Shown in pieces: positions 7,723 to 25,006 of a stretch of 64,000 nucleotides of DNA (its first letter is position 1; each line of letters begins with the position of its first letter). The position numbers and the translations under genes are program-made. The notes beneath the pieces are model-generated. The model searched no databases and was not told the origin of the DNA. It worked only from the letters and a program-made list of their open reading frames with translations. Origin of the DNA: Amycolatopsis umgeniensis (GTDB lineage: Bacteria; Actinomycetota; Actinomycetes; Mycobacteriales; Pseudonocardiaceae); assembly GCF_014205155.1 (NCBI RefSeq), contig NZ_JACHMX010000001.1:2604001-2668000 (forward strand), written 5' to 3'.

Positions 7723-7727
7723 AGCGC

Positions 7728-9348: not shown

Positions 9349-9378
9349 GTAATAAATCAAAGCCCACCAACGATTTCG

Positions 9379-9690: not shown

Positions 9691-9721
9691 CCACACGACG
9701 TCTCATCCCGAGCGGCGTCGT

Positions 9722-9747
9722 GGAACTTTCCGTGCCGTCGATGCGAC
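9722..9747 (+). promoter_or_regulatory. ECF-type promoter GGAAC-N17-CGAC (MFS/GH88 operon)
   Basis: GGAAC at 9722-9726 and CGAC at 9744-9747 are separated by exactly 17 bp, 22 bp upstream of the MFS start. The same arrangement recurs at six other starts between here and 23700. Confidence 0.65.
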
Positions 9748-9769
9748 TGTTGGGCGTGACGATGTGGAG

Positions 9770-10957
9770 ATGTCCGTGACGAGCACCGAACCGAACACCC
9801 GATCGGCCCTGCCGTTGACGTCGTTGCTGACCGCGGCGATGACCTGGTCGATGTTGCCACTGTTCTTGCTCGGTGCGCTGGGCCCCGCGCTGGTGGCGGA
9901 GTTCGGGATCGCCACACCGTTGCTGGGTGTGCTGGTGTCGGTCGGCTTCGCCGTGGCCGCCGCCCTGTCGCTGTTCGCGGGACCGGTGGTCGCAGCGCTC
10001 GGTCCCCGGCGGTGCCTGATCGCGCTCTTCCTGTTCTCTGGTGTGGTGTTGGCCGGGTTCGCCAGTGCGCCCGTCTACGGGCTGCTGGTGGTCGCGGTGG
10101 CCGCGTCCGGCGTGCCCCAGGCGCTGGCGAATCCGACGACGAATCAGCTGATCTCGACGCGGGTTCCCGCGAAACAACGTGGCGGGGTGACGGGCTGGAA
10201 ACAGTCCGGTGTCCAGCTGGGGGCGTTCTTCGCCGGGCTGCCGCTGGCCGCGATCGCCGCGGCTTCGGATTGGCGGGTCGCGGTGGGGATCGCGGCCGGG
10301 ATCGCGGTGATGGCCGGCCTGCTGACGCTGACCTTGCAGCCGGACGCCGAGCCGGTGCGAGCCGTCCGGTGGACCGTGGTCAAACCGACCGGGCAAGCCT
10401 GGTGGTTGTGTGGCTTCTCAGTCCTGCTGGGAGCGGGTATCTCGGCGGTAAACACCTACATCACGTTGTTCGGTACGAAGCAGCTCGCGCTTCCCGCCGG
10501 TGTCGCGAGTGGGCTGGTCGCGGTTCTGGGGGTCGCCGGGATCGCCGGCCGGGTGGGATGGTCACGGGTCGCGGCGAAGTCGGATTCGCCGGGTTCGTTG
10601 CTGGGCCCGCTGACGGCCGGGTCGGCGGTCGCGGCGCTGGGGCTCGTCGCGGCGGCAGTCTGGTGGCCGGGTTGGGCTTGGGTCGCGGCGGCTGGGTTGG
10701 GCGTCTTCGCGGCATCGGCGAACGCGGTGTCGATGGTGACGGTGATCTCGACCTCGCCCGCGGGCTCGGTCGCCCGGGATTCATCGGTGGTGTCGGCGGG
10801 ATTCTTCGCGGGATTCGCGATCGGGCCGCCGGTCGCCGGGGCAGTGGTGGCCGTGGCTGGAGGGCGTTATCAGGCCGGCTGGCTGCTCGTGGCCGCCGAG
10901 TTCCTGGCCGCCGCCGGGGTCGCGTGGTGGTGGCGTAGCCGGGATCCACGTTCATGA
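9770..10957 (+). CDS. MFS transporter
   Basis: 395 residues from ATG 9770, chosen because it follows a GTGGAG ribosome site and the promoter at 9722-9747. About 12 hydrophobic helices are visible, and the loop GPRRC with TRVPAKQRGGVTGWKQSG is typical of major facilitator proteins. It sits in the cytoplasmic membrane. It overlaps the GH88-like gene by 4 bases (ATGA), so the two are translationally coupled. Within this island it could export or import a metal-binding small molecule, but its substrate is not evident from sequence. Confidence 0.9.
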   Translation: MSVTSTEPNTRSALPLTSLLTAAMTWSMLPLFLLGALGPALVAEFGIATPLLGVLVSVGFAVAAALSLFAGPVVAALGPRRCLIALFLFSGVVLAGFASAPVYGLLVVAVAASGVPQALANPTTNQLISTRVPAKQRGGVTGWKQSGVQLGAFFAGLPLAAIAAASDWRVAVGIAAGIAVMAGLLTLTLQPDAEPVRAVRWTVVKPTGQAWWLCGFSVLLGAGISAVNTYITLFGTKQLALPAGVASGLVAVLGVAGIAGRVGWSRVAAKSDSPGSLLGPLTAGSAVAALGLVAAAVWWPGWAWVAAAGLGVFAASANAVSMVTVISTSPAGSVARDSSVVSAGFFAGFAIGPPVAGAVVAVAGGRYQAGWLLVAAEFLAAAGVAWWWRSRDPRS

Positions 10958-11940
10958 CGTGGATCGACGAGAAGCTCGATCGTCTTCTTGACCGGGTGAC
11001 GGCGACGGAAACCGAAGTGGGTGAACGGTTTCCCTTGTCGGCCGATCCGGCGACCGGCTTGTGGAAGACGACCCGGCGCGGTTCCTGGACGGCCGGGTTC
11101 TGGGTCGGCCAGCTCTGGTTGCGCGCACGGCTGACCGGTCTCGACGAGCACCGCGTGACAGCCGGCCGGTGGACAGCGCGGCTGGCCGAATGGACCGATG
11201 CCGACACCGTCACCCGCGGCTTGATCTTCTGGTACGGCGCCGCGGCAGCGAAACGGCTCGGCGTGGATTCCGCCCACGCCGGTCTCGCCCGGAGAGCGGC
11301 ACTCGCCCTGGCGTCGACCTTCGATGAGGCGTCCGCGGTGCTCCCTTGGGGTACGGCCTTCGGTGATGTGGCTTCACCTCCGCTCGCCCGCACGGACGGG
11401 GCCGCCGGTGCGGTGCCGTTGCTGTCCTGGGTTGGGGAGAAAGCCGTTGCGGCATCGCATCTTCGGACACATGTGTCGCTCGCGGAGCAGATCGGCGGGA
11501 ACGCCTGGACTTACGTCTCCGGGAAATGGGGGCCTTCGGCTGAGCCTCCACCAGGCTGGACGCGAGGCGATGCCTGGCTGCTGCTGAGCCTCGCCGACGG
11601 CAGCCGGTGGCTGGACCCTGCGCTGGCCGAACCCGCCAGACAGCGGCTAGCTCACTTACCGCGGAATTTTCCAGCGGTACGCGGAATCCAGGGCAGTCCG
11701 CCGGATTCGTCCGCGGCGGTGATCACCGCGGTGGCCATGGCGAAGCTGGGCTTGCTCGATGAGGCCGCGGACCTGGTGAAGGTCCAGGTCCGCGACCACG
11801 TCCAGGACGATCGTCTCTGGGACGGCTGCCACGATCTGAGTCGCGGTGTCGCAACCGCGCATCAGCTGGTGTGGGGCGACTTCTTCTTGCTCCTGGCGCT
11901 GGCCATCCTGGCAGGCCGGGTGCCTGCGGACGCGCTCTGA
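10954..11940 (+). CDS. GH88/GH105-like (unsaturated glucuronyl hydrolase-type) protein
   Basis: 328 residues with an (alpha/alpha)6-barrel style: SWTAGFWVGQLWL near the N-terminus, PPGWTRGDAWLLLSLADG in the middle, DSSAAVITAVAMAKLG, then VWGDFFLLLAL at the end. These motifs match unsaturated glucuronyl hydrolases, which hydrate and cleave unsaturated uronic residues. There is no signal peptide, so it is cytosolic. It is coupled to the MFS gene, so imported or modified sugar-like ligands are conceivable. Its stop abuts the stop of the convergent metal-binding lipoprotein gene. Confidence 0.75.
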   Translation: MTWIDEKLDRLLDRVTATETEVGERFPLSADPATGLWKTTRRGSWTAGFWVGQLWLRARLTGLDEHRVTAGRWTARLAEWTDADTVTRGLIFWYGAAAAKRLGVDSAHAGLARRAALALASTFDEASAVLPWGTAFGDVASPPLARTDGAAGAVPLLSWVGEKAVAASHLRTHVSLAEQIGGNAWTYVSGKWGPSAEPPPGWTRGDAWLLLSLADGSRWLDPALAEPARQRLAHLPRNFPAVRGIQGSPPDSSAAVITAVAMAKLGLLDEAADLVKVQVRDHVQDDRLWDGCHDLSRGVATAHQLVWGDFFLLLALAILAGRVPADAL

Positions 11941-12744
11941 TCAGGCCGCAGCGAACGCGTCGGTCAGCAGTTTGGCATTGTTCCGGTACACCGGCAGCAG
12001 ATCGAGGTCTTCGCCCGGGAAGTTGACGACGTTGATCTGTTTGGCCGGTGTTCCCGGCAGGACGGTGCCCGTGGTCATGGCTTCGTTGTCGAAGACGTAT
12101 TGCGGGTTCTTCGCCGACAGCTCCGCCAGCTTGCTCGCCGTGACGGGCTCCGGGCCGAAGGTGGCGAGAACGTTCGCGCCGGAGAGCTGGGCGGCGAACT
12201 TCACGAAGGCCTGTTCGATCACCTGTGGCTGTTTGCCGCCAGGCCAAGCCTTCTTGACATCCGCGGTGAGGCGGTCGTATTCCTGCTGGAAACCGGTGAT
12301 CCATTTCTCGGCAGCGGCCTGGGTGCCGAACATCCCGGCAAGACGGCGGACCTCCTTCTCGACGTTGTCCTTGGCGTTGTCGAGGTTCAGTTCCACCGGT
12401 TTCGCCGTGGATCCGGCGGCTTCCTTGAGTTTGCCCGCGAACCCTTCGAACGGCGCATACAGCAGATACTGCGCGCTCGCGACCGCCGCCAGATCGGACG
12501 GTTTCGGATCGTAGTCGGGCGCGTGCTTGATCGACGGCGGCACGATCACCGTGACCTTGCCCGCACCGGCGGCCTTGGCGAACGCTCCTTCCCAGCTGGT
12601 CGCGGCGACCACGGTGGGCCCTTCCCCCACGGCGGGTGCGCTGCTGGGCGAGGAGCCGGACTCCCCGCTCGAACCGCAGGCGGTGAGCAGAACCGCGCCG
12701 AAGGTCAGTGCGCCTGCACGGAAGAAGTGTCTGCCGAATGCCAT
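11941..12744 (-). CDS. Metal ABC transporter substrate-binding lipoprotein (ZnuA/MntA-like)
   Basis: 267 residues with a signal peptide and lipobox (GAVLLTACGSS). Family landmarks are VVAATSWEGAFAKAAG at the start, the metal-ligand loop PPSIKHAPDYDPKPSDLAAV, and a C-terminal INVVNFPGEDLDLL. The canonical receptor has several His ligands; here H in IKHAPDY is kept, while the long His-rich loop of ZnuA is absent. The metal could therefore be Zn, Mn or another ion. It is third in the ATPase-permease-receptor operon read leftwards, and its start overlaps the permease 3' end by 40 bp. Confidence 0.85.
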   Translation of the reverse strand: MAFGRHFFRAGALTFGAVLLTACGSSGESGSSPSSAPAVGEGPTVVAATSWEGAFAKAAGAGKVTVIVPPSIKHAPDYDPKPSDLAAVASAQYLLYAPFEGFAGKLKEAAGSTAKPVELNLDNAKDNVEKEVRRLAGMFGTQAAAEKWITGFQQEYDRLTADVKKAWPGGKQPQVIEQAFVKFAAQLSGANVLATFGPEPVTASKLAELSAKNPQYVFDNEAMTTGTVLPGTPAKQINVVNFPGEDLDLLPVYRNNAKLLTDAFAAA

Positions 12745-13559
12745 TGACGTTTTCTCCAATCGGGAACCAGATACGACACGAGGGTGACCGCGCCGGCCAG
12801 CAGTACCAGGACCGGGCCGGGCGGAAGATCGAGGACGAGCGACAGCAGGAACCCCGCGACGTTGACCACCAGGCCGATCACGACGGCGGCGATCACCATG
12901 CCGTGCAACGAGTTCGCGACCCGGCGCGCGGCGAGTGCCGGGAGCAGGGTGAGCGCGTCGACCAGCAGCGCGCCGGTCAGCCGGATGGCACCCGCGACCG
13001 AAACGGCGACCAGCAGCAGGAGCACGAAGGTGAGCCGGTCGACCCGGACACCCGAGCAGGCCGCGAGTTCCCTGTCGTGCAGCAGAAGCGCGAGCTGACG
13101 TCGCCGCGCGAAGAACAGCGCAGGGATGATGACCGCCAGTACACCGAGCAGCACCACGTCCCAGGTGCGGGTGGCGAGGATCGACCCCCAGAGCAGCTCG
13201 AACGCGCCGTTGGCGTTCACGCCGGATACGGACAGCACCAGCAGGGCCGCGGCGATCGCGAGACTCATCAGCAGTCCCATCGCGCCGGACAGCCCGGACG
13301 GTGTTCGCGCCAGCGGGGTGAGGGCGCCGCCGGAGAGGCCGCAGGCGATCAGCGCGCACAGCAACGGATCCAGGCCGACGAGCATGCCGATGGCGATCCC
13401 GAACAACGCCACGTGCATCATCGCGAACCGCACCGGCATGATGTCCAGCCCGATGATGACGACCCCGATGATCGGCAGTCCGATCGCGCCGAGGACGAGC
13501 CCGAACAGTCCACGTTGGACCGGTGCCAGCTGGAGCAGGTCACCGAGCGAAGCGTTCAC
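12705..13559 (-). CDS. Metal ABC transporter permease (ABC-3 family, ZnuB/MntB-like)
   Basis: 284 residues from GTG 13557-13559, which overlaps the ATPase stop in GTGA. There are about eight hydrophobic helices, including PVRFAMMHVALFGIAIGMLV and the later GALLVDALTLLPALAAR, the usual ABC-3 permease signatures. It forms the membrane channel for the lipoprotein receptor at 11941-12744. The C-terminal tail (RKRQWHSADTSSVQAH) is read through the 5' end of the receptor gene. Confidence 0.9.
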   Translation of the reverse strand: MNASLGDLLQLAPVQRGLFGLVLGAIGLPIIGVVIIGLDIMPVRFAMMHVALFGIAIGMLVGLDPLLCALIACGLSGGALTPLARTPSGLSGAMGLLMSLAIAAALLVLSVSGVNANGAFELLWGSILATRTWDVVLLGVLAVIIPALFFARRRQLALLLHDRELAACSGVRVDRLTFVLLLLVAVSVAGAIRLTGALLVDALTLLPALAARRVANSLHGMVIAAVVIGLVVNVAGFLLSLVLDLPPGPVLVLLAGAVTLVSYLVPDWRKRQWHSADTSSVQAH

Positions 13560-14209
13560 TGGACGACCTCGGCGGTGATCTCCCGAAGGCGGCCGTCGGC
13601 CATCTCGAGCACGCGGTCGCATCGGGCGGCCAGCGCGCGGTCATGGGTCACCACGAGCAGCGTCACCGGCAGGGACGCCAGAAGGCGCGCGGCGTCCTCC
13701 TGCCCGGCGAAGTCGAGGGCGGCCGTCGGCTCGTCGGCCAGCAGCACCCGCGCGCCCGCGGCGACGCAACCGAGCGCGCGAGCGAGATACATGCGTTGCA
13801 GCTGCCCGCCGGAGAGGGTATGCAGTGGACGGCCGGTCAGCGATCCGACACCGAGCTGGTGCGCGGCGTCGAGTGCTTCCGCGGCGGCGCCGCTGCTCGC
13901 GAGAAGTTCTTTGGCGAGCAGGGGGAATCGGCCGGTGGACTGCCGCTGCGGAATCCACGCGGCGACGCGACGCCGCCGATCCCAGTCCGCGGCTGTGCGC
14001 GCCCGGTGGCCGTCGACGTCGATCTCACCGATGACGGCCCGGTGCAGCCCGAGCACGGCGCGCAGCAACGTCGTCTTGCCGGAACCGTTGGTCCCGGTGA
14101 GCGCGACCCGCTGACCCGGTTCGACGAGCAGATCGACGTCGCGCACCACCTGGGTCCGGCCATGGACGCAGGACACGCGCGACAGCGCGATCCGTGCTGC
14201 CTCCGCCAC
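13556..14209 (-). CDS. Metal ABC transporter ATP-binding protein (ZnuC/MntC-like)
   Basis: 217 residues from GTG 14207-14209. Walker A is GTNGSGKTT, the signature is LSGGQLQRM, Walker B is VLLADEPTA, and the switch His is in VVTHDRAL. It is short for the family, as in other actinobacterial Zn/Mn importers. It is first in the operon, with a candidate ECF promoter 46 bp upstream (14255-14280). Confidence 0.92.
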   Translation of the reverse strand: MAEAARIALSRVSCVHGRTQVVRDVDLLVEPGQRVALTGTNGSGKTTLLRAVLGLHRAVIGEIDVDGHRARTAADWDRRRRVAAWIPQRQSTGRFPLLAKELLASSGAAAEALDAAHQLGVGSLTGRPLHTLSGGQLQRMYLARALGCVAAGARVLLADEPTAALDFAGQEDAARLLASLPVTLLVVTHDRALAARCDRVLEMADGRLREITAEVVQ

Positions 14210-14254
14210 GCACTCACTCCTCGTTCACGGGCCCGGTCGTCGTTCGGCGAACTA

Positions 14255-14280
14255 GTCGCGCCGGCGAGCCGGTTGGTTCC
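14255..14280 (-). promoter_or_regulatory. ECF-type promoter GGAAC-N17-CGAC (metal ABC operon)
   Basis: Read on the minus strand, GGAAC (14276-14280) and CGAC (14255-14258) are 17 bp apart, upstream of the ATPase start at 14209. A back-to-back GGAAC at 14283-14287 on the plus strand lacks the CGAC partner. Confidence 0.65.
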
Positions 14281-14304
14281 CGGGAACTTTTGGTGTGCGG
14301 CCCA

Positions 14305-15423
14305 TCACCCTTGGTAAGAGCGGAAGAGCCTGCGCGCGGCCGACTCGATGTGCAGCTCGTCGGCCCCGTCGAGAATGCGCGCCGCCCGTGCTGTTCTCAA
14401 CAGGCGCGGCAGGCCTGTGGCCGCGGTCAGGCCTTCGGCGCCGTACACCTGGATCGCGCCGTCGACGGCGGTCTCCAGTGCTCGCGCGGCGGCCACCTTC
14501 GCCAGGCTGACCTGCACCGCCGCACGCTCTCCCGCGGCGACCAGGCCACCGGCTTCCGCGGTAAGAAGCCGGGCACTGCGAACCTGCAGCTCGGCCTCGA
14601 ACACCAGGCGCTGCACCAGCTGCCGGTCGGCGAGCACTCCACCACCGAGCCGCCGCCCGGTGGCACGCAGGGCGAGCATCTCGGTCGCACGCTGCGCCTG
14701 CCCGACCCAGCGCAAGGCGCGAAGGGTGCGGCCCAGCGCGAGTCTTTCGCCCGCGAGGGCGAGCCCTTGTCCTTCGTCGCCGATCAACTGGGTCTTGGGC
14801 ACGAAGACCCCGGAAAACGTTATCTCGTACTGCCCTCCCGCTCCGAGGACGTCGAGTTCCCGCACGATCTCGAAGCCGCCGGCAGGCACTGCCAGCAGCG
14901 AGTGTTCGTCGCCGGTGCGAACCATCACCAGGACAAGGTCCGCTTTCGCCGCGCCGGTGGTGAACCACTTCCGCCCGGTAACCCGCCACCCGTCGTCGCA
15001 GGGCACGGCGCGTGTCCGCATCGCGTGGGGATCTGATCCGGCGACACCGGGCTCGGTCATCGCGTAGCTCACTGACAATTCGCCGGCGACCAGCGAAGAA
15101 ATCCAGTTGTCGCGGCGATCGGCGTGGGCGTGTGAAGCGAGCATCCGGGCGTTCAACAGCGACGCGGAGCCGAGTACGTCCGGCCCGTGATCGCTGCGTC
15201 CTTCGTGTTCGGCCAGACGAAAGTAGTCGGCCGAAGGGAGGCCGCCGCCACCGTGCTCGACCGGCAAGGGCAAGGCCCACAATCCCGCGCTCCTGGCTTG
15301 CTCGCGTAGCTCGTCGAGCCGCTGTCCATCGCCCTCGTCCAGGGCATCCTCGGCCGGAATCACTGCGGTGTCGATGAATTCCCGCACCCGCCGGGCAAGT
15401 CTGCGCTCGTGCTCTGGCGTCAC
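14305..15423 (-). CDS. Acyl-CoA dehydrogenase family protein
   Basis: 372 residues with the family layout: a helical N-terminus, the FAD/substrate loop SYAMTEPGVAGSDPHAMRTRA, the WFTTGAAKADL strand, and a C-terminal helical domain with QVYGAEGLT and RAARILDGADELH. Such enzymes introduce a double bond next to a CoA thioester using FAD. It is transcribed divergently from the CoA-transferase/ligase pair, with 88 bp between them. I see no GGAAC-N17-CGAC site on its own strand. The shared context suggests it acts on the same acyl group. Confidence 0.9.
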   Translation of the reverse strand: MTPEHERRLARRVREFIDTAVIPAEDALDEGDGQRLDELREQARSAGLWALPLPVEHGGGGLPSADYFRLAEHEGRSDHGPDVLGSASLLNARMLASHAHADRRDNWISSLVAGELSVSYAMTEPGVAGSDPHAMRTRAVPCDDGWRVTGRKWFTTGAAKADLVLVMVRTGDEHSLLAVPAGGFEIVRELDVLGAGGQYEITFSGVFVPKTQLIGDEGQGLALAGERLALGRTLRALRWVGQAQRATEMLALRATGRRLGGGVLADRQLVQRLVFEAELQVRSARLLTAEAGGLVAAGERAAVQVSLAKVAAARALETAVDGAIQVYGAEGLTAATGLPRLLRTARAARILDGADELHIESAARRLFRSYQG

Positions 15424-15440
15424 AGAACCACACTTTCGAG

Positions 15441-15466
15441 GGAACTCGATCCGGAAACCATCCGAC
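15441..15466 (+). promoter_or_regulatory. ECF-type promoter GGAAC-N17-CGAC (CoA-transferase operon)
   Basis: GGAAC at 15441-15445 and CGAC at 15463-15466, 45 bp upstream of the CoA-transferase start at 15512. Spacing is identical to the other sites of the set. Confidence 0.65.
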
Positions 15467-15511
15467 TTTAGTCACGACACGTGGTCGTCATGCGAGGTGG
15501 AGGCTAGCTCA

Positions 15512-17107
15512 ATGGCAGGCAGACAGACGGTGGTCACTCAGGTGGACCAACTGTTAGCGGGAGCGTCGGCCCGGGTGCACGGTACTGGCGCGACCGCCGA
15601 CCTCCTGCGCGGGCACCTGCGGGCGTTGGGAGCCGAGGTGACCACCGGCGCGCAAACGGGCGCGGCCGCCGAAGCGGTCGTGAACATGACCGACGGGACC
15701 CGGCGGGAGATCGGCGTCTCCTGGTCCGGCCCCGTCGACGAGCCCGGCCTCACCGGTGAACTCCCCGTCCAGGCCGTCTGCGGGGTCATGCACGTCAACG
15801 GCCGCCGCCGAGGCGCACCGCAGGCGGTGGCCGTCGACTACTGCTCGACCGCTGCCGGAGTGCTGGCCATGACGGGATTCCTGGCGAGCCTGCACAGCAG
15901 TGAACGCGCTGTCCGCATCGAGACGAGCGTGGCCGAAGCCGCCCTTCTGTCCGTCTCCCAATACCTCGCCGGAGCGGGCGCCGAAGATCCGGAAGCCGTG
16001 GATCTCAGCCCCGGTGGTCCTCCGTTCGTCAGCGCGGACGACGTGAGATTCGAGATCGAGACGCTCCAGCCGGAACCGTGGGGCGATTTCTGGCGGGCGC
16101 TCGCTGTCGATCCCTCGGCGATCCGATCGAGCTGGCGGCCGTTCCAGTTCCGTTACGCCACCGCGACCGCTCCCCTGCCCAGCGGACTGCATGAGGCCAC
16201 CCGTGCTCATTCCTTCGCGGCGATCTCGGACGTCGCCGCGCGGACGGGCATGTACATCTGCCGTCTGCACTCTCCTGGACCGCTCTCCTCGGGAACTCCG
16301 TGGACGTTGCGGGAAACCGGCGGCTCTCCGCGCGAACAACCTCGACCGCAACGGCGGCCGCCCTTGCGCTCACACGTGGTTCTCGAAGCGGGACGGCGCA
16401 TCCAGGCGCCGCTCACAGCGCACCTTCTCCGGCTCCTCGGAGCCGACGTGACCCGGGTCGAACCGCCCGGCGGAGACCCGTTACGGGGCATGCCACCCTG
16501 CACCGGCGGGATCTCCGCACGATGGCTGGCGCTCAACCGCGGCAAGGACTCCATCGAACTCGACATCAAATCCGCCGCCGACCGCGATCGGCTGAAACTG
16601 CTCGCCGCCGACGCTGACGTGTTCCTCCACAACTGGGCACCCGGCAAAGCCGAAGAACTCGGCCTCGCCCCGAAGGACTTCGACGGCGGCCTGGTGCACG
16701 CCTACACCTCCGGATGGGGCGGCTCCACCGAAACGGACCTGCCGCCGGGCACCGACTTCATGGTGCAGGCCCGCACAGGTCTCGCCGAACTCGTCGGCCC
16801 CGCAGGCGAACCATCCGCGCCGTCGCTGATGACCCTGCTGGACGTCCTCGGTGGCCTGCTCGGCGCGGAAACCGTCGTCGCGGCGCTCCTCGCGCGGCGG
16901 CGCCACGACACCGGCATCTCGGCGGAGAGCAGTCTCTTCGGGGCCGCCGAAACCCTTCGGGCGGCACCGGTCTCGCCACGTTTCGAACTCGGCGTCGCGG
17001 TGACCCACGACCTGCCGGCGCTCCTCGAAGACCCTCGTATGACCGCGGTGCTGGAACGCGACGAATACGGCTGTCCGGCCCTGCGCACTCCCTGGAGAAT
17101 CTCATGA
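15512..17107 (+). CDS. CoA transferase, CaiB/BaiF family (class III)
   Basis: 531 residues from ATG 15512, with GGAGG about 10 nt upstream. The C-terminal half carries the class III features: VLEAGRRIQAPLTAHLLRLLGADVTRVEPPGGDP, with the later RGKDSIELD and DVFLHNWAPGKAEELG. The N-terminal half looks like a diverged second copy of the fold (GVMHVNGRRRG). The enzyme moves CoA between carboxylic acids in the cytosol. It overlaps the acyl-CoA ligase gene by 4 bases (ATGA). The acid substrate is unknown. Confidence 0.85.
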   Translation: MAGRQTVVTQVDQLLAGASARVHGTGATADLLRGHLRALGAEVTTGAQTGAAAEAVVNMTDGTRREIGVSWSGPVDEPGLTGELPVQAVCGVMHVNGRRRGAPQAVAVDYCSTAAGVLAMTGFLASLHSSERAVRIETSVAEAALLSVSQYLAGAGAEDPEAVDLSPGGPPFVSADDVRFEIETLQPEPWGDFWRALAVDPSAIRSSWRPFQFRYATATAPLPSGLHEATRAHSFAAISDVAARTGMYICRLHSPGPLSSGTPWTLRETGGSPREQPRPQRRPPLRSHVVLEAGRRIQAPLTAHLLRLLGADVTRVEPPGGDPLRGMPPCTGGISARWLALNRGKDSIELDIKSAADRDRLKLLAADADVFLHNWAPGKAEELGLAPKDFDGGLVHAYTSGWGGSTETDLPPGTDFMVQARTGLAELVGPAGEPSAPSLMTLLDVLGGLLGAETVVAALLARRRHDTGISAESSLFGAAETLRAAPVSPRFELGVAVTHDLPALLEDPRMTAVLERDEYGCPALRTPWRIS

Positions 17108-18768
17108 CCGCGATCCCGCATGCCCGGACGACACCGGTCTACCGCGACCTCGTCCCCGCTGACGTCCGCGCCGGCTGGCGCTATCCCGACCGCGACCTCT
17201 ACACGTTGTTCGCCCGCCAGTGCCTCGACCAGCCGGACAAGATCGCCGTGATCGACGCCGATGGTGAACTGACCTACGCCGAACTCGACGACATGGCCCG
17301 ACGGCTGGCCGCCGGGCTCGCGCGGCTCGGGATCGAGCCCGGTGAAGTGGTCGCGGTCCAGCTGCCCAACGGCCGTCTCGCCTGTGCGGCCGACCTGGCC
17401 ATCGCGGCACTCGGCGCGATCGCCCTTCCGTATCCTGTCGGACGTGGTCAACGGGAGGCGGCGAGCCTGCTCGGCCGATCTCGCGCGGTCGCGGTGATCA
17501 CCGTTACCCTGCACGGGGATTTCGCCTGCGCCGCGGGAATCCGGAACCTCGCCGCGGAACTGCCCGACCTGCGCGCGGTCATCGCCGTCGGCACCGACAC
17601 CCCCGCCGGATGTGTGCCGATCCATGCTCTCCTGGCCGCGGACGCGCGTTCGTTCCGGCCGGCGCGGCCCGATCCGAACGCGCCGGCCCGGATCCTGGTG
17701 ACCTCCGGTTCGGAGGCCGAACCCAAGATGGTGGCCTACTCGCACAACGCGCTCGCCGGCGGGCGGGGCACCATGCTCGCCGAACTGCACGACGTCCCGG
17801 CGGACATGCGCAATCTGTTCCTCGTGCCCCTCGCGACCGCGTTCGGCAGCAGCGGAACCTCGGTCACCCTCGCCACTCTCGGCGGAACCCTGTTGCTGCA
17901 ACCGAAGTTCGACGCGGCCGCCACACTGCGCCTGATCGGACGAGCCCGGCCGACACATCTCCTCGGCGTCGCGACCATGCTCCGCCAGCTGGCCTCCGCG
18001 CCCGAGCTGGCGAGCGCCGACCTGTCGAGCCTCCGGGCTGTCGTGATCGGCGGTGCCGTGCTCGATGAACCCACCGCCCGCCGAGGCCGGGAAGCGCTCG
18101 GCTGCCCGGTGATCAACCTCTACGGTTCCGCAGACGGTGTCAGTACGCACACTGCCCTCGACGACCCGGTCGAGCGCGTCACCACGGCCGGACGCCCGAA
18201 TCCCGGTGTCGCCGAAATCCGGGTCGTCGACGAACACCTCGAGGAACTTCCCATCGGCGAAGTCGGTGAGCTCATCGCCCGCGGCCCGATGTCCCCGCTG
18301 TGTTACGTCGGCGCTCCGGAGCTGGACGCCCGCTATCGCACACCGGACGGCTGGGTCCGCACCGGCGACCTCGGGCGGATCGACGACGAGGGCTACCTGA
18401 CCATCGTCGGGCGGCGCAAGGACGTGATCATCCGCGGCGGCATGAACATCAGCCCGGCGGAAGTCGAAGCCGTTCTGATCACTCACCCGGCGATCCGTGA
18501 CGTCGCGTGTGTCCCGGTCCCGGATCCGCTGTTCGGTGAACGCCTGTGTGCCTGTGTCGCCAGCGAAACCCCGCTGTCCCTGGACGATCTGACCGGCCAT
18601 CTGGAGCGCAGCGGTCTGGAGCGACGCAAGTTTCCGGAACGGCTCGTGGTTCTTCCCTCGCTCCCATTGGGGCCCGCGGGGAAAGTCGACCGGCGGGTCT
18701 TGCGGGCTTTGGCCGTCGAGCACCGTGAGTTTCCTGTCATCGCGACGGACAAGGCGAAACCCAGTTAG
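17104..18768 (+). CDS. AMP-dependent acyl-CoA synthetase/ligase
   Basis: 554 residues of the ANL superfamily. The adenylate motif is LVTSGSEAEPKM, less Thr/Ser-rich than the standard STSGTTGxPK. A further motif is VINLYGSADG, and the hinge is DGWVRTGDLGRID followed by GRRKDVIIRGGMNISP. The C-terminal lysine motif is LPLGPAGKVDRRVLR. It activates a carboxylic acid with ATP, most likely to a CoA thioester, which suits the partner CoA-transferase and nearby acyl-CoA dehydrogenase. No carrier-protein gene is visible. Confidence 0.9.
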   Translation: MTAIPHARTTPVYRDLVPADVRAGWRYPDRDLYTLFARQCLDQPDKIAVIDADGELTYAELDDMARRLAAGLARLGIEPGEVVAVQLPNGRLACAADLAIAALGAIALPYPVGRGQREAASLLGRSRAVAVITVTLHGDFACAAGIRNLAAELPDLRAVIAVGTDTPAGCVPIHALLAADARSFRPARPDPNAPARILVTSGSEAEPKMVAYSHNALAGGRGTMLAELHDVPADMRNLFLVPLATAFGSSGTSVTLATLGGTLLLQPKFDAAATLRLIGRARPTHLLGVATMLRQLASAPELASADLSSLRAVVIGGAVLDEPTARRGREALGCPVINLYGSADGVSTHTALDDPVERVTTAGRPNPGVAEIRVVDEHLEELPIGEVGELIARGPMSPLCYVGAPELDARYRTPDGWVRTGDLGRIDDEGYLTIVGRRKDVIIRGGMNISPAEVEAVLITHPAIRDVACVPVPDPLFGERLCACVASETPLSLDDLTGHLERSGLERRKFPERLVVLPSLPLGPAGKVDRRVLRALAVEHREFPVIATDKAKPS

Positions 18769-18916
18769 AGATCGGGAACTTTTGGCTTGCGCACGCGACA
18801 ACTGCTGAGTGGATGCGGTGCCGTCGGGGCGCATGCCGCCGTCCACGTACCAAGGCCGGCGGCGAAGCGTGTCTTCTACTCCTGAGAGATTACGCCTCGC
18901 CGCCGGTCCGGGCTCC
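18769..18916. other. Intergenic with a GGAAC-N16-CGAC element
   Basis: GGAAC at 18775-18779 and CGAC at 18796-18799 (16-bp spacer) lie just after the ligase gene, on the plus strand. A short GTG-initiated frame (18809, beginning VDAVPSGRMPPSTYQG) follows but runs antisense into the CopZ-like gene, so I do not call it. The 13 bp CGGGAACTTTTGG also occurs at 14281-14293. Confidence 0.35.
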
Positions 18917-19123
18917 TCATCCCACGAGCTGGTATCCGGCTGTCTTGACCGCGTTTTCGACCAGGCCGGGTTCCAGCGCGATGTCGCTGACGATCACGAC
19001 CTTGCCGGTCGGGACGTCGACATCGACCTGCCGAACACCAGGGATCTCACCGATCTCTTCCTTGACCGAGGAGGCGCAATGCCCGCAGGACATGCCAGTC
19101 ACCGCATAGGTGTTCTGGGTCAT
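18917..19123 (-). CDS. Heavy-metal-associated (CopZ-like) metallochaperone
   Basis: 68 residues, a single HMA domain. It opens MTQNTYAVTGMSCGHCASSVKE; GMSCGHC is the classic Cu(I)-binding CxxC loop, and the ferredoxin-like fold ends TAGYQLVG. A ribosome site (AGGAAAG) precedes the ATG at 19121-19123. Such proteins deliver copper in the cytosol to a P-type ATPase or regulator. No ATPase gene is beside it. The promoter at 19186-19211 ties it to the divergent ECF sigma factor. Confidence 0.9.
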   Translation of the reverse strand: MTQNTYAVTGMSCGHCASSVKEEIGEIPGVRQVDVDVPTGKVVIVSDIALEPGLVENAVKTAGYQLVG

Positions 19124-19185
19124 CTTCGCTCGCTTTCCTTGCTGTGCCCAGGTTGTGACGAGGCAGTGGCCTCGCCGTAACAAGG

Positions 19186-19211
19186 TCGGGCGGCACGCGG
19201 GATTGGTTCCC
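19186..19211 (-). promoter_or_regulatory. ECF-type promoter GGAAC-N17-CGAC (metallochaperone)
   Basis: On the minus strand GGAAC (19207-19211) and CGAC (19186-19189) are 17 bp apart, 62 bp upstream of the CopZ-like start. Confidence 0.65.
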
Positions 19212-19213
19212 CG

Positions 19214-19239
19214 GAAATGTCGCAAGATTCCTTTCAACC
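19214..19239 (+). promoter_or_regulatory. Degenerate ECF-type promoter (sigma factor gene)
   Basis: GGAAA (19214-19218) and CAAC (19236-19239) are 17 bp apart, upstream of the sigma gene on its own strand. It differs by one base in each box from GGAAC-N17-CGAC, as expected for a weak autoregulated promoter. Confidence 0.4.
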
Positions 19240-19283
19240 GATCGAGTGATCTGCGCGTATCCATGAAGGTGAGGCGGCAACGC

Positions 19284-19847
19284 ATGGAGGACACCGAGGT
19301 CACGCGTGTGGCCAAGCTGGCCGGTCGCGGCGATCGGGCTGCCCTGGATCTGTTCCTGCGCGCGACCCAGCCACACGTCTGGCGATTCGTGGCCGGCCTG
19401 AGCGACGCGCAAACCGCGGACGACCTCACCCAGGAGACCTACATCCGCGCCATGCGGAGTCTTCCCCGGTTCAAGGGTGATTCCTCCGCGAAGACCTGGC
19501 TGCTGTCCATCGCGCGCCGTGTGGTCGTCGATCACATCCGTGCCGCGCAGTCACGTCCGCGCCGATCCGGCGTCGCGGACTGGGAAGCGGCGATCGATCA
19601 GGCGGAGCCGCCCGCTCGCAGCCGGTTCGAGGAACGTGTCGTCCTCGACCAGCTGATTGCCGCACTCGCCCCCGACCGGCGGGAGGCGTTCGTGCTCACC
19701 CAGACACTCGGGCTCTCCTATGCCGACGCGGCGGAGATCTGCGGCTGCCCGGTCGGGACGATCCGGTCCCGCATCGCGCGAGCCCGCGACGACCTCGTGA
19801 CCGCCATGAACGCGGACTCCCCCACAGGCAAGACCGCGGTCGTCTGA
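19284..19847 (+). CDS. ECF RNA polymerase sigma factor
   Basis: 187 residues from ATG 19284; an alternative ATG at 19263 is in frame, but 19284 has GGTGAGG at the right distance. Region 2 reads DDLTQETYIRAMRSLPRFKG with KTWLLSIARRVVVDHIRA. Region 4 reads YADAAEICGCPVGTIRSRIARAR. It resembles small group IV sigma factors, including the SigC type. The gene for a zinc anti-sigma factor follows 38 bp later, and CopZ-like and importer genes surround it. I infer that it reads the GGAAC-N17-CGAC promoters of this island. Confidence 0.92.
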   Translation: MEDTEVTRVAKLAGRGDRAALDLFLRATQPHVWRFVAGLSDAQTADDLTQETYIRAMRSLPRFKGDSSAKTWLLSIARRVVVDHIRAAQSRPRRSGVADWEAAIDQAEPPARSRFEERVVLDQLIAALAPDRREAFVLTQTLGLSYADAAEICGCPVGTIRSRIARARDDLVTAMNADSPTGKTAVV

Positions 19848-19850
19848 CCG

Positions 19851-19876
19851 GGAACTCCACGCGGCTCGAGTACGAC
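19851..19876 (+). promoter_or_regulatory. ECF-type promoter GGAAC-N17-CGAC (anti-sigma gene)
   Basis: GGAAC 19851-19855 and CGAC 19873-19876, in the 38-bp gap between the sigma and anti-sigma genes. The predicted transcript would start close to the GTG at 19886, so it would be nearly leaderless. Confidence 0.55.
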
Positions 19877-19885
19877 CAATTACCC

Positions 19886-20611
19886 GTGAAGTGCGCAGAG
19901 TTCCGTGAATCGCTCTCCTGCCGGCTCGACGGCGAGACCGAGACGATGCCGGAAGCCGCGCTCGCCCGCCACGCCCGCGCTTGCCCGTACTGCCGCAACT
20001 GGCAGGAACGCGCCATGGATCTGCGGCGACTGATGCTGATCCGGAAAGCACCGCAGATCCCCGACCTGACCGACCGGATCCTGCGGATCGCCGCCTTGCC
20101 TTCGCTGGAACGATGGGGACTGCGCATCGCTTTGGCGATCGTCGCACTCATCCAAAGTGGACTGGGGTTCGGGCAGCTGATCATGCCGGAAACCGGTCAC
20201 GGCGGCCACGCCGGGGTAACCGGCGCCGCACACCTCGGCAACGAGAGCGCCGCCTGGAACCTCGCGGTCGGCATCGGCTTACTCTGGGCCGCGCTCCGCC
20301 CGCGGACCGCGGCCGGCCTGGTGCCGGTACTGGCCGGATTCGTCGTCGTGCTCGGCACGGTCTCGACGATCGATCTCATAAGCGGACAGGTCACCGCCGA
20401 GCGGGTTCTGTCGCACTCACTTGTGGTCGTCGGCGTCGGCTTGCTCATTGCGGTGCGGCGGCAAGTACGCCTCCCACCGGTGCCCGCCCCCGGGGACTTC
20501 ATCGTGCCCGCCGACGAGCTCACCTCGCCGGGCTTCACCGACGTCGCATCGCCGCAACACGACCATGACGGGTCTCCCCGCCTACCCACCGGGCGGCACC
20601 AGATCGCGTGA
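19886..20611 (+). CDS. Membrane zinc-finger anti-sigma factor
   Basis: 241 residues from GTG 19886. The N-terminal anti-sigma domain has the zinc motif H29-x3-C33-x2-C36 in ARHARACPYCRNWQ, plus C3. A multi-helix membrane region spans roughly residues 70-190 (for example LRIALAIVALIQSGLGFGQL and AAGLVPVLAGFVVVLG). A loop rich in His and Gly (ETGHGGHAGVTGAAHLG) between helices could sense a metal at the outer face. It presumably holds the adjacent ECF sigma factor until a signal arrives. Its end converges with the ABC ATPase gene. Confidence 0.88.
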   Translation: MKCAEFRESLSCRLDGETETMPEAALARHARACPYCRNWQERAMDLRRLMLIRKAPQIPDLTDRILRIAALPSLERWGLRIALAIVALIQSGLGFGQLIMPETGHGGHAGVTGAAHLGNESAAWNLAVGIGLLWAALRPRTAAGLVPVLAGFVVVLGTVSTIDLISGQVTAERVLSHSLVVVGVGLLIAVRRQVRLPPVPAPGDFIVPADELTSPGFTDVASPQHDHDGSPRLPTGRHQIA

Positions 20612-20622
20612 CCCCTGCGAGT

Positions 20623-21417
20623 TCAGTCCACGATGCGTGAGGCTTCCGGGACCGAGGTGGCCGCTGTGACGAAATGTGGGCGGCCGGTGATCGGGTGCGG
20701 GACGATCACACTGCGCACCCCGAACACTTCGGCCACCCGATCGGGCTCCAGCACCTCCGCCGGAGATCCGGCGGAAAGCACCCGGCCCGCTCGCAGCAGC
20801 ACCAGGCGATCGCAGTAGGTCGTCGCGTGATCGAGATCGTGCAGGGCCACCACGGTGGTCAACCCGAGTTCGCGAACGAGATCGAGCAGGCCGAGCTGCG
20901 CGCCGATATCGAGATGGTTGGTCGGTTCGTCCAGCAACAGGACCGGTGTCTTCTGCGCCAGCGCCCGCGCCACCAGGACTCGTTGCCGTTCCCCGCCGGA
21001 AAGCCGGGTGAAGACCCGCCGGGCGGCCCAGGCCATCCCCACCCGGCCGAGCGCGTCCCGCACGATGTCGCGATCACCGACGTTGTCCCGTTCCAGGATG
21101 CCTTTGTGCGGGGTCCGTCCCATGAGGACGGTCTCCTCGACCGAGAACCCGTTGTCGAGATCGTGGTCCTGGACGACGACAGCCGCCCGTCGCCCGGCCT
21201 CGCGCGCGGTGCCCCGCCAGACGTCGGACTCTCCGATGTGGACGGATCCGCGGACCGGCTTCAACGCGCGGTAGACGCAACGCAGCAACGTGCTCTTCCC
21301 GGACCCGTTGGGGCCGATGAGCCCGGTCACGGTACCGGATTCGACGTCCACATCGACATCGCCGAGGATCGGGAGGTCGTCGATCACCACGGACACGTCC
21401 CGTATCTGGATCTTCAC
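20623..21417 (-). CDS. Fe-siderophore/cobalamin-type ABC transporter ATP-binding protein
   Basis: 264 residues from GTG 21415-21417. Walker A is GPNGSGKST, the Q-loop is VVQDHDLDN, the signature is LSGGERQRV, Walker B is VLLLDEPTN and the H-loop is VALHDLDHA. It is the FepC/FecE/BtuD type. It is third in the receptor-permease-ATPase operon and overlaps the permease gene by 4 bases. A decayed paralogue lies at 40148-40790. Confidence 0.93.
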   Translation of the reverse strand: MKIQIRDVSVVIDDLPILGDVDVDVESGTVTGLIGPNGSGKSTLLRCVYRALKPVRGSVHIGESDVWRGTAREAGRRAAVVVQDHDLDNGFSVEETVLMGRTPHKGILERDNVGDRDIVRDALGRVGMAWAARRVFTRLSGGERQRVLVARALAQKTPVLLLDEPTNHLDIGAQLGLLDLVRELGLTTVVALHDLDHATTYCDRLVLLRAGRVLSAGSPAEVLEPDRVAEVFGVRSVIVPHPITGRPHFVTAATSVPEASRIVD

Positions 21418-22463
21418 CGCAGCGCTCTCCTCCGGCCACGCAGCAACATCAGGAAGAACGGCGCGCCGAGCGCCGCGGTGAAGATGCCGATCGGCATCTC
21501 GTTCGGTTTGTTCACCGTGCGGGTGGCGAGATCGACCAGTACCAGGAACACCGCACCGCCCAGCAGGGACACCGGGATCACCTTGCGATGGTCCGGGCCC
21601 ACGACCAACCGCACCGCGTGCGGGACCACCAGACCGACGAAGCCGATCCCGCCGGCGACGCTCACCACGGTCGCCGTGAGCAGCGAAGCCGCCACGAGCA
21701 ACAGGACGCGCAGGCGATTGACGTCGACCCCCAGCCCCGCCGCGGTGTCCTCGCCTGTCGCGAGCGCGTTCATCATCCGGCCCCGGCTCATCAGCCACAG
21801 CCCGGCGACCGCGGTCGCAACGGCCGGGATCGCGAGATCGGCCCACGAGGCTCCGGCGACCGAGCCGAGCAACCAGAACATGACCCCGCGCAGTTCCGAC
21901 GGATCGACCAGCAACTGCATCAACCCGGTTCCCGCCATGCCGAGATAGGCGACGGCGACCCCGGCCAGGACAAGGCTGGTACCGACGAGCCTGCCCCCGC
22001 GTTGCGCCATGGCGAAGACCACGAACAGACTCACCGAGGAACCCGCGAACGCACCGCCCGCGACGCCGATCGCCGCCGCGACCCCGGTCGTCATCACCAC
22101 GACGGCGCCCAGTGACGCGCCCGCCGTCACGCCGAAGGTATAGGGATCGGCGAGCGGGTTCCGGACCAAGGTCTGTAAGCACAACCCCGCCAGGCTCAGT
22201 CCTGCTCCGGCCACCGCCGCGAGCAGCACACGCGGCGTACGGAACGTCCACACGATCTGATCGGTCAGCGGATCCAGCCCCGCCGTGTCACCGGTGAGAT
22301 GTGCCCAAACCACGGCGACGACCCGCCCGACCGGGACATCGACGGTGCCGACGCCGACCGAGAAAGCGACCGTCACCGCCAACGAGACGATCAGCCCGGC
22401 GAGCAGAACGGTGAACCCCTTGCCCTGCACCAGATGTGGGCGCCGCTGGTCAACGTGCGGCAT
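21414..22463 (-). CDS. FecCD-family ABC transporter permease
   Basis: 349 residues, about ten helices, with the family signatures TFRTPRVLLAAVAGAGLSLAG, QTLVRNPLADPYTFGVTAGA and GGIGFVGLVVPHAVRLVVGPDH. It is a single permease, which would act as a homodimer in the cytoplasmic membrane. ATG 22461-22463 overlaps the receptor gene 3' end by 14 bp. Confidence 0.93.
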   Translation of the reverse strand: MPHVDQRRPHLVQGKGFTVLLAGLIVSLAVTVAFSVGVGTVDVPVGRVVAVVWAHLTGDTAGLDPLTDQIVWTFRTPRVLLAAVAGAGLSLAGLCLQTLVRNPLADPYTFGVTAGASLGAVVVMTTGVAAAIGVAGGAFAGSSVSLFVVFAMAQRGGRLVGTSLVLAGVAVAYLGMAGTGLMQLLVDPSELRGVMFWLLGSVAGASWADLAIPAVATAVAGLWLMSRGRMMNALATGEDTAAGLGVDVNRLRVLLLVAASLLTATVVSVAGGIGFVGLVVPHAVRLVVGPDHRKVIPVSLLGGAVFLVLVDLATRTVNKPNEMPIGIFTAALGAPFFLMLLRGRRRALR

Positions 22464-23553
22464 CGGCGATCTTCCGGATCGCGACCGTGTTGAGCGGGCC
22501 GAGGTAGAAGCTGTCGGAGACGCTGGTGAAGGTCTTGCTCTTCGACGCCTGCCAATAGGGGAACTTCGCGAACAGGTCCTCGGCCAGCACGTCCGCTTTC
22601 TCCCCGGGCTGGAACAACCCGACGACCAGCACATCGACCCGAGCCGAGGCGAGGGCTTCGGCGTTGATCTCGGCGAGCTGGGTGTTCGTCTTGCCCGCGA
22701 ACGCGTTCACCCCGCCCGCACGGTCGACGATGTCGTCGAAGATCCCGCCCGCGAACACCGCGGGCAGCCCGTTGTTGTTCATCATCGACATGCCCGGATA
22801 GACCACCAGGACATGCTTGCGCTCCCTCCCCGCCGCTTCCTGCTGGATGGCTGCGATGTCGGCGCGGGCCTTGTTCACGTAATCGGCGGCACGCTGCTGC
22901 ACGTCGAAGATCTCACCAAGGCTCAACAGCAGCTCGTACGACGACTCCACAGACTGCTTCTCGTACCGTTCCTTGTCCTCCGGCCGGGCGTTCAGGTCGC
23001 CGTTCGCGCAGTTGGACGGCGTGACGAAACTCTTGATCCCCGCCGCGTCCAGCTGATCACGGGTGACCGAACCGACCTTGTCGTCGAAACCACCCGCCCA
23101 CGTGGAAACCACCAGATCCGGCTTGAGCGCGAGGACCTGCTCACGCGGGACCTCGAAGTTCTCGTTGAGCTTCAGGTTCGCCCTGGGGACAGCCTTGATC
23201 CTGTCCACGAAAGACGGATCGTCCGACACCTCGTAGGACTGGCTGTTGGCCAGGATGTGGTCCTGGATACCGAGAGCGAGGAAGCTCTCCACCTCCGCCA
23301 CCGACGTGCCGTTGAGCAGCACCACCCGCTTCGGGGGCGCGTCGAAGGTGACCTTGCGGCCGCAATTGTCGATCGTCAGCGGATACGCCGTGGGTGTCGC
23401 CACAGCAGGAGGCGGCACGCTCGCGCCCGCCTGCCGATCAGCACGCGTGGGATCACCGCTGCCGCACGCCGCGACCACGGCGAGCATCACGCCTGCCATC
23501 AGGACGCGCGAAACCAGACGTCCGGCGCGGCGCGCGCCGTCAAGAGAGGACAT
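22450..23553 (-). CDS. ABC transporter substrate-binding lipoprotein (metallophore/siderophore type)
   Basis: 367 residues with a signal peptide and lipobox (AVVAACGS). It is a FepB/BtuF-like class III binding protein: YPLTIDNCGRKVTFDAPPKRVVLL, FLALGIQDHIL, LALKPDLVVSTWAGGFD, and a C-terminal RVDVLVVGLFQPGE. The ligand could be a metal chelate or corrinoid. It is first in its operon. The ECF-type promoter ends 9 bp upstream of the ATG, so the message may be nearly leaderless. The divergent gene encodes the Cys-rich 75-residue protein. Confidence 0.92.
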   Translation of the reverse strand: MSSLDGARRAGRLVSRVLMAGVMLAVVAACGSGDPTRADRQAGASVPPPAVATPTAYPLTIDNCGRKVTFDAPPKRVVLLNGTSVAEVESFLALGIQDHILANSQSYEVSDDPSFVDRIKAVPRANLKLNENFEVPREQVLALKPDLVVSTWAGGFDDKVGSVTRDQLDAAGIKSFVTPSNCANGDLNARPEDKERYEKQSVESSYELLLSLGEIFDVQQRAADYVNKARADIAAIQQEAAGRERKHVLVVYPGMSMMNNNGLPAVFAGGIFDDIVDRAGGVNAFAGKTNTQLAEINAEALASARVDVLVVGLFQPGEKADVLAEDLFAKFPYWQASKSKTFTSVSDSFYLGPLNTVAIRKIADAAR

Positions 23554-23562
23554 GACCCAAAA

Positions 23563-23588
23563 GTCGTACGAGCGCGCGAAAAAGTTCC
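23563..23588 (-). promoter_or_regulatory. ECF-type promoter GGAAC-N17-CGAC (FecCD-type importer)
   Basis: On the minus strand GGAAC (23584-23588) and CGAC (23563-23566) are 17 bp apart, upstream of the receptor start at 23553. The decayed copy near 40770 keeps the CGAC box but has lost GGAAC. Confidence 0.65.
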
Positions 23589-23659
23589 GCGTCAAGTTGA
23601 CCTTCCGTACGCGATCACGACACCTGCACAGGCCGGTCGAGTGACAGCAACGAGACCGG

Positions 23660-23685
23660 GGAACCTGATCCCCACCCTGTCCGAC
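23660..23685 (+). promoter_or_regulatory. ECF-type promoter GGAAC-N17-CGAC (Cys-rich protein)
   Basis: GGAAC 23660-23664 and CGAC 23682-23685, 37 bp upstream of the small Cys-rich gene. It is divergent from the importer promoter at 23563-23588. Confidence 0.65.
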
Positions 23686-23722
23686 TACCCACAAGACACC
23701 GCCGACTACGAAAGGCAGGCCC

Positions 23723-23950
23723 ATGTCCGTACCAGAGAACAACCTCCGTCACGTCGCTACCTTCTGCGGACAATGCAACTGCGGCTGCCCCGAACTCTTC
23801 ATCGCCGACGACGCCCCGGCCGAACGCCGGGTGATCATCACCGACGACTTCGGCCAAAAGATCGAGATGAGCCTCGACCAGCTCGACGTCCTCGTCACCG
23901 ACATCAAAACCGGCACCTTGGACGGGCTCCTCACCAAGACCGGCGCCTGA
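23723..23950 (+). CDS. Small Cys-cluster protein (C-x2-C-x-C-x-C), 75 aa
   Basis: Starts MSVPENNLRHVATFCGQCNC, with cysteines at 15, 18, 20 and 22. An acidic, well-ordered C-terminal half follows (RRVIITDDFGQKIEMSLDQL). An AAAGG ribosome site precedes the ATG. I do not recognise a named family. The dense Cys cluster suggests thiolate binding of Cu(I), Zn or an FeS cluster, or a modified-peptide precursor; the conserved-looking C-terminal half argues for a folded protein. It is divergent from a metallophore-type importer and has the same promoter type as the rest of the island's metal genes. Confidence 0.8.
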   Translation: MSVPENNLRHVATFCGQCNCGCPELFIADDAPAERRVIITDDFGQKIEMSLDQLDVLVTDIKTGTLDGLLTKTGA

Positions 23951-24943: not shown

Positions 24944-24950
24944 GTAAGAA

Positions 24951-25006
24951 ATCAAAGCCCACCAGAGGTTTAACCCAATTTTCGGGTGCCTTCGGTGGGC
25001 TTTGAT
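24951..25006 (+). terminator. Terminator-like hairpin after att copy 4
   Basis: ATCAAAGCCCACC pairs with GGTGGGCTTTGAT around an AT-richer loop. It is homologous in position and arms to the tRNA-Lys terminator. Confidence 0.6.

Follow-up and report, generated by a model that had tools for sequence, protein, structure and literature searches.

The stretch of DNA analysed here, hereafter the window, comprises 64,000 nt of Amycolatopsis umgeniensis (G000:C1:2604001-2668000), whose genome consists of 9.23 Mb in a single contig. It contains an island at a tRNA-Lys gene. The island carries a gene cluster around an extracytoplasmic function (ECF) sigma factor and its anti-sigma factor, and this cluster, a probable copper-acquisition regulon, is the subject of this report. 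The tRNA-Lys gene (CTT; 1132..1205, plus strand) is the presumed integration anchor, the last 40 bp of which recur exactly at 3903 and 9308. The cluster is flanked by a 191-bp direct repeat resembling an attachment site and containing the tRNA-Lys 3' end (9179..9369, plus), which recurs with 93% identity as the right repeat at 24775..24964 (plus).

The cluster begins with a major facilitator superfamily (MFS) transporter (9770..10957, plus; MFS_1 E 1.5e-29) and an unsaturated-glucuronyl-hydrolase-like (UGL-like) protein (10954..11940, plus; match to 2ahf, E 3.7e-11). On the minus strand follow the three genes of an ATP-binding cassette (ABC) metal importer, namely a ZnuA-like lipoprotein (11941..12744; ZnuA 25.8 bits, the cutoff of 29 not being reached), an ABC-3 family permease (12705..13559; ABC-3 E 2.5e-33), and an ATPase that is the first gene of the operon (13556..14209; ABC_tran E 4.5e-25), as well as an acyl-CoA dehydrogenase (14305..15423; Acyl-CoA_dh_1 E 1.6e-26). 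The plus strand then encodes a class III CoA-transferase-like enzyme of 531 aa (15512..17107; CoA_transf_3 E 6.2e-53) and an AMP-binding acyl-CoA ligase (17104..18768; AMP-binding E 1.5e-66). A CopZ-like copper chaperone (18917..19123, minus; HMA E 1.4e-14; TIGR00003 53 bits, below the cutoff of 62) precedes the sigma factor (19263..19847, plus) and the anti-sigma factor (19886..20611, plus). A second importer lies on the minus strand and comprises a FecE-type ABC ATPase recognised by domain and model matches (20623..21417), a FecCD permease (21414..22454; FecCD E 3.1e-89), and a FecB-type receptor (22450..23556; Peripla_BP_2, E 4.2e-21). The last gene encodes a 75-aa Cys-rich protein (23723..23950, plus) with 614 relatives, four Cys being kept in 21 rows. 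The Pfam and ZnuA scores of the MFS, ZnuA-like, ABC-3, CoA-transferase, ligase, and CopZ-like proteins were obtained with longer open reading frames (ORFs).

An earlier note on this DNA described seven promoter-like sites with identical GGAAC and CGAC boxes and a 17-bp spacing, and all of them are present. They lie ahead of the MFS gene (9722..9747, plus), the ZnuABC-like importer operon (14255..14280, minus), the CoA-transferase gene (15441..15466, plus), copZ (19185..19210, minus; one base off 19186, where it had been placed), the anti-sigma gene (19851..19876, plus; 9 nt ahead of it), the FecB operon (23563..23588, minus), and the Cys-rich gene (23660..23685, plus). The gap between the -10 box and the chosen start codon is 6-61 nt. 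All seven match GGAACY-N16-CGACY, and five have an extra G before GGAAC. The window contains 11 matches to GGAAC-N17-CGAC vs. 1.76 ± 1.20 in shuffled sequences, none of 100 shuffles reaching 11. Ten of the matches fall within 9722-23685, where 0.45 would be predicted from the genome density (295 in 9.226 Mb; Poisson P ~6e-11). Three of these ten (11959 minus, 17543 plus, and 20005 plus) are intragenic and were not counted as promoters. The refined form GGGAACY-N16-CGACY occurs 19 times in the genome vs. 7 in the control, and the cluster holds five of the 19. Nine of the 14 refined-motif hits outside the cluster were checked for overlap with genes: six are located within probable genes, one is followed by no gene, and the remaining two stand ahead of an 86-aa ORF and of copC. 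The DJ-1/PfpI site discussed below is among the other five, another of which sits 38 nt ahead of a methyltransferase gene.

Related loci were retrieved with the CoA-transferase as the query. The best 80 of 287 relatives were taken, in stretches of 5.5-21.8 kb, and they span Streptomyces, Nocardia, Lentzea, Actinokineospora, Umezawaea, and Streptosporangiaceae, among others. A laboratory strain with the cluster is S. lavendulae CCM 3239 (locus L145). Since the loci were retrieved by that gene, the presence of the CoA-transferase in them is no evidence. Gene presence was counted at E 1e-5 with no identity cut, and one set of sequence rows was freed of identical rows and of segments shorter than about 140 residues. 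For the comparison of promoters 20 more loci were added, giving 100; the upstream count left out tblastn hits above E 1e-8, below set identity minima, starting past residue 25 of the query, or with less than 250 bp upstream.

In these 100 loci the exact motif turned out to be conserved at the starts of the transcription units. It is found upstream of the ZnuC-type ATPase gene in 71 of 74 cases, of the MFS gene in 60 of 72, of the CoA-transferase gene in all 33, of the acyl-CoA dehydrogenase gene in 67 of 77, and of the anti-sigma gene in all 14. It is absent upstream of the operon-internal genes (UGL-like 0/75, ABC-3 0/74, ZnuA 0/54, ligase 0/80). Random stretches of the same loci contain it in 2.3% of 10,000 draws, a control that includes true sites because it was drawn from those loci. 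Spacings of 13 to 21 other than 17 occur only 0-3 times per gene in the orthologues. A function of the 16-bp-spaced site that the earlier note had placed at 18775 is not supported, a 16-bp spacing being seen in 1/72 MFS and 1/33 CoA-transferase orthologues and nowhere else. The consensus of 250 instances is CGGGAAC[CT]-N16-CGAC[TC]. When more upstream sequence is included, 57 of the 80 loci have all four cluster promoters. The window's own dehydrogenase has no exact motif ahead of it, unlike 67 of its 77 orthologues. For the second importer, the motif is tied to three FecB relatives, and in locus L237 one lies before a Peripla_BP_2 gene.

The MFS/UGL-like/acyl-CoA/ABC set is not confined to this island: it is widespread in actinobacteria. 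Besides the CoA-transferase, the 80 loci contain the ligase (80), dehydrogenase (78), UGL-like protein (76), MFS transporter (75), ATPase (74), permease (74), ZnuA-like protein (73), and SigC (65). The order MFS, UGL-like, dehydrogenase/CoA-transferase, ligase, ZnuA, ABC-3, ZnuC is kept in 59 of them, and the order of the window, with the ABC operon ahead of the dehydrogenase, is common to two. A congener (G223) possesses a diverged cluster with motif sites (MFS 75%, permease 87%, CoA-transferase 64%).

The sigma factor has both ECF domains (Sigma70_r2, 8.1e-16; Sigma70_r4_2, 3.8e-17). SigC was the best of the 88 NCBIfam models matched, with 210.3 bits; since the curated cutoff of 219 is narrowly missed, the protein is called SigC-like or SigC-type here, not SigC. 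The host genome contains a second SigC gene (G000:C1:1722296-1722826), the product of which is 61% identical to the island sigma factor and groups with the copy of a congener in a quick tree (91% support in the Shimodaira-Hasegawa-like approximate likelihood ratio test, SH-aLRT). At this second locus the motif stands 9 nt ahead of the anti-sigma gene. One SigC-type match was found in each of six congeners sampled and two in the host genome, and the two host copies may read the same promoters.

The anti-sigma factor resembles zinc-binding anti-sigma factors in its N-terminal HxxxCxxC, with zf-HC2 scoring 19.7 bits, under the cutoff of 22.2. HxxxCxxC is present in 15 of 16 anti-sigma rows, including that of the window, the remaining row being unreadable at its N-terminus; H-x3-E-x2-AWN and a C-terminal [AVI]A are present in all 16. 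Hydrophobic segments, which suggest a membrane-bound protein, and His residues ahead of the AWN segment were read by eye. This type of anti-sigma factor was detected in 9 of the 80 loci. In 33 of the 80 a His/Met-rich protein without a Pfam domain is encoded (L164 5318-6130 and relatives), and it could be a copper sensor in its loci.

The gene and promoter analyses bear out the view that an ECF sigma/anti-sigma pair lies amid a local regulon that unites two importers with a copper chaperone and acyl-CoA chemistry. Self-regulation, also assumed earlier, stands as far as the anti-sigma gene is concerned, and sigma-driven synthesis of the anti-sigma factor would constitute a negative feedback. 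It is not supported for the sigma gene. The degenerate site at 19214, proposed to serve that gene, has three mismatches to GGGAACY-N16-CGAC, and autoregulation of the sigma factor through it gains no support, as the motif precedes only 1 of 87 SigC genes in the relatives.

The notion of a metal or metallophore system holds as to the metal theme and can be sharpened to copper. In the 100 loci there are 396 motif-to-ORF pairs, 312 with cluster genes and 84 with others. Judging by cluster representatives, the 84 include HMA P-type ATPases (18 ORFs), a small membrane protein (13), DJ-1/PfpI (10), CtaG (6), and PepSY (6); the rest form a 7-member cluster, a 3-member cluster, and 21 singles. Pfam confirmed CtaG, PepSY_TM, CopC, PCuAC, DJ-1, and P1B-ATPase on examples, and the P1B-ATPase example carries CPC, GYN, and MSVSS. 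In the Lentzea-type locus L236, the gene immediately behind that of the anti-sigma factor is copC. An unlinked copC of the host genome is preceded, in intergenic DNA, by the refined motif at a distance of about 40 nt from its start. The refined motif is also found 26 nt before the TTG start of a host DJ-1/PfpI gene (G000:C1:7509541; L234 7838-8515, minus), the product of which has isocyanide hydratase as its closest protein in the PDB (E 4e-24); this hints at isonitrile handling under the same sigma factor. SigC of M. tuberculosis belongs to ECF36 (PMC8999054) and serves copper starvation (PMC7924339, PMC9147137), and in C. glutamicum CopC, PCuAC, and the fusion protein CtiP act in copper import or oxidase assembly (PMC9145763). 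Both the SigC likeness of the sigma factor and the copper genes that adjoin the cluster or have the motif in the relatives make copper the probable metal. A copper-acquisition regulon, as opposed to generic metal handling, is the best reading of these sequences.

The proteins themselves add some detail. In the ZnuA-like lipoprotein, H74 coincides with the first metal His of AztC if a gap is allowed and misses that of 4k3v by two residues, and the second half hardly aligns. No more than one of the usual metal-binding His residues can be located, and that only with a gap. H74, N220, M223, and D248 do not vary among 32 rows. The protein taken for a GH88 enzyme in the earlier note is indeed UGL-like, but in the alignment to 2ahf its T87 occupies position 88 and D148 position 149. 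Asp88 and Asp149 are the catalytic residues of unsaturated glucuronyl hydrolases; the matched chain itself, the D88N mutant, shows Asn at 88. The dehydrogenase has a conserved LDG.DE where acyl-CoA dehydrogenases usually have YEGT, and because of this replacement its usual catalytic Glu may be Asp. No nonribosomal peptide synthetase (NRPS), carrier-protein, or isonitrile-forming oxygenase domain was matched by Pfam in the scanned cluster ORFs, the part of the genome searched for them. As to the Cys-rich protein (CGQCNCGCP), the 120 relatives listed out of 614 have no Pfam domain, and six of nine loci with its gene have no SigC in the 20-kb stretch.

That the element is mobile is supported by the marks it bears, namely the direct repeats of a tRNA 3' end and a congener without the insert. 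Positions 1-1231 and 40791-64000 of the window match the DNA of congener G085 at 92-97%, with about 12.8 kb of other sequence between them in that genome. In the 80 kb examined of congener G054, 4570-9377 (94%) and the repeat are present, and there is no match above 250 bp to 9378-24736; the whole genome of this congener yielded no CoA-transferase match at E 1e-40. The module is considered mobile because of its position between tRNA-Lys-derived repeats and its absence from a congener. Pfam found no integrase in the island ORFs scanned, which are part of the island's ORFs. Nested tRNA-Lys-derived repeats (3738-4006, 9179-9369, and 24738-25004) split the island into at least two modules. The same tRNA-Lys island carries a pPIWI-RE defence island (26967-35947), consisting of a PD-(D/E)XK protein, pPIWI_RE_Y/REase, pPIWI_RE_Z, and pPIWI_RE with MID and RNaseH.

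Taken together, the sequence data suggest that the cluster is probably a mobile, SigC-type regulon that acquires copper when it is scarce. In such a regulon, copper shortage would cause the anti-sigma factor to release the sigma factor, which would then turn on the two importers, the copper chaperone, and the MFS/UGL-like/acyl-CoA set, while fresh synthesis of the anti-sigma factor would close the feedback loop. The ligase, CoA-transferase, and dehydrogenase might make an organic copper ligand without an NRPS; the MFS protein would export it and the ABC systems would take it back together with copper. The ligand-making step is the least certain part, and we put it forward tentatively. The same caution applies to the wider possibility of an undescribed NRPS-free chalkophore pathway of actinobacteria, which would combine the acyl-CoA ligase, the class III CoA-transferase-like enzyme, the dehydrogenase, and the UGL-like protein without Asp88 with export by the MFS protein, re-import by a ZnuABC-derived system whose lipoprotein binds an organic copper complex, gating by SigC/anti-SigC under copper starvation, and, possibly, spread on tRNA islands.

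A number of observations weigh against the copper-acquisition regulon or parts of it. At least one of PCuAC, P1B, CtaG, CopC, PepSY, and CopZ occurs in 43 of 80 loci vs. 0 of 14 congener stretches, but some of the copper reference proteins were picked because the loci contain them repeatedly, and the 14 controls were stretches of congeners, a genus other than that of most of the 80 loci, rather than of the same hosts. In the other 37 loci the stretch lacks all six copper-type genes; a CopZ relative is found in 6 of 80, the Cys-rich gene in 11, and copC in 5. The motif is rare before the relatives of the Cys-rich gene (1/20) and of CopZ (2/7), and because of this their promoters rest mainly on the window, although in L233 a site stands upstream of a CopZ and a Cys-rich gene that apparently form one operon. 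Alternative picking of ORFs ties the motif to two ligase, one permease, and two sigma ORFs among the 396. The SigC cutoff is narrowly missed, and the island sigma factor sits on a long, unresolved branch of the quick SigC tree. SigC of M. tuberculosis has no known anti-sigma factor, and a conformational mechanism has been proposed for it (PMC7924339, PMC8999054). The promoter motif itself shows a moderate genome-wide excess over the reversed control in its plain form (295 vs. 214) and none as GGAACY-N16-CGACY (56 vs. 62). Because this excess is small or nil, the motif is indicative of a promoter only where its position or its conservation adds to it, and lone hits mean little. The counts of unlinked hits in three other genomes are close to those of the control (25 vs. 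18, 19 vs. 13, and 13 vs. 9), so an unlinked regulon is not claimed for them. These genome counts are what speaks for a compositional coincidence of GC-rich DNA. The conservation of the motif with a fixed spacing at orthologous starts and its absence from operon-internal genes led to the rejection of chance, which now has a negligible probability.

A copper ligand might be made and re-imported, or captured and catabolised. It is conceivable, at the same tentative level as the ligand-making step, that a foreign copper ligand is imported and then broken down by the ligase, CoA-transferase, and dehydrogenase to free the metal, no synthesis being involved. Carboxylates, too, are usually catabolised by enzymes of these three types, the UGL-like protein is similar to a hydrolase, and the isocyanide-hydratase-like host gene and the DJ-1/PfpI-type ORFs of relatives have the motif ahead of them; the Thr at the catalytic Asp88 position argues the other way, and so does the motif at the MFS/UGL-like operon, which would suit an exporter, although there are importers among MFS proteins as well. 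A different metal appears rather unlikely. The transporter families would suit a system for zinc, iron, or some different metallophore, with zinc as the substrate of the ABC-3/ZnuA operon and an iron siderophore as that of FecBDE, and the 37 loci without a nearby copper-type gene are in line with this; however, no IdeR-type or Zur-type box matches the window at up to three mismatches, no more than one of the usual metal-binding His residues can be located in the ZnuA-like protein, and both the SigC likeness and the company of copper genes point to copper. P1B-ATPases, CopC, and CopZ occur in copper resistance, too. A regulon responding to copper excess is nevertheless very improbable, given that two importers are under the motif, relatives have the assembly proteins CtaG and PCuAC, and the SigC of M. 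tuberculosis serves starvation (PMC7924339, PMC9147137).

If the copper-acquisition regulon is real, it would offer a soil-actinomycete model in which the sigma factor has a cognate anti-sigma factor, the promoter is defined, and the gene set is conserved. It would also predict a new kind of copper ligand, or a new uptake route for copper ligands, in many Streptomyces and relatives, and would represent a metal-acquisition regulon that a tRNA island carries as a single unit, with a defence system next to it. Neither the type of sigma factor nor the copper theme is new. For an anti-sigma switch joined to a widely conserved acyl-CoA/MFS/ABC module no description was found in searches of an open-access library containing few subscription papers; the earlier note likewise knew of no description of this gene combination.

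The first importer is akin to the zinc importers ZnuABC and AztABC in its ABC-3 permease, ATPase, and lipoprotein related to metal-binding lipoproteins, whereas it is set apart by a lipoprotein in which no more than one metal His can be located and by the lack of a Zur-type box in the window. With the isonitrile lipopeptide chalkophores (SF2768 and the nrp product of M. tuberculosis) the cluster would share production and re-import of a copper ligand, and the isocyanide-hydratase-like host gene has the motif, but the scanned cluster ORFs include neither an NRPS nor an isonitrile-forming oxygenase domain. In C. glutamicum, sigma C reportedly controls the genes for CtiP, CopC, and PCuAC. The components of the CtiP/CopC/PCuAC system of that organism (PMC9145763) have counterparts in the relatives described here, where genes for CopC, PCuAC, and a CtaG extended N-terminally by a membrane part adjoin the cluster or have the motif, while an acyl-CoA/MFS/ABC-3 module is not mentioned in the consulted parts of that paper. 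A further close parallel is the SigC (ECF36) copper-starvation regulon of M. tuberculosis (ctpB, ppe1-nrp). There, SigC, which has no known anti-sigma factor, controls the nrp operon for an isonitrile lipopeptide, and the means by which a lack of copper is perceived is described as an open question (PMC7924339); here, the scanned cluster ORFs contain no NRPS or carrier-protein domain, and the anti-sigma gene has the motif. Both systems have a SigC-type sigma factor, a small-molecule module under this sigma factor, and a P1B-ATPase, which in our case is found among the motif-linked genes of the relatives.

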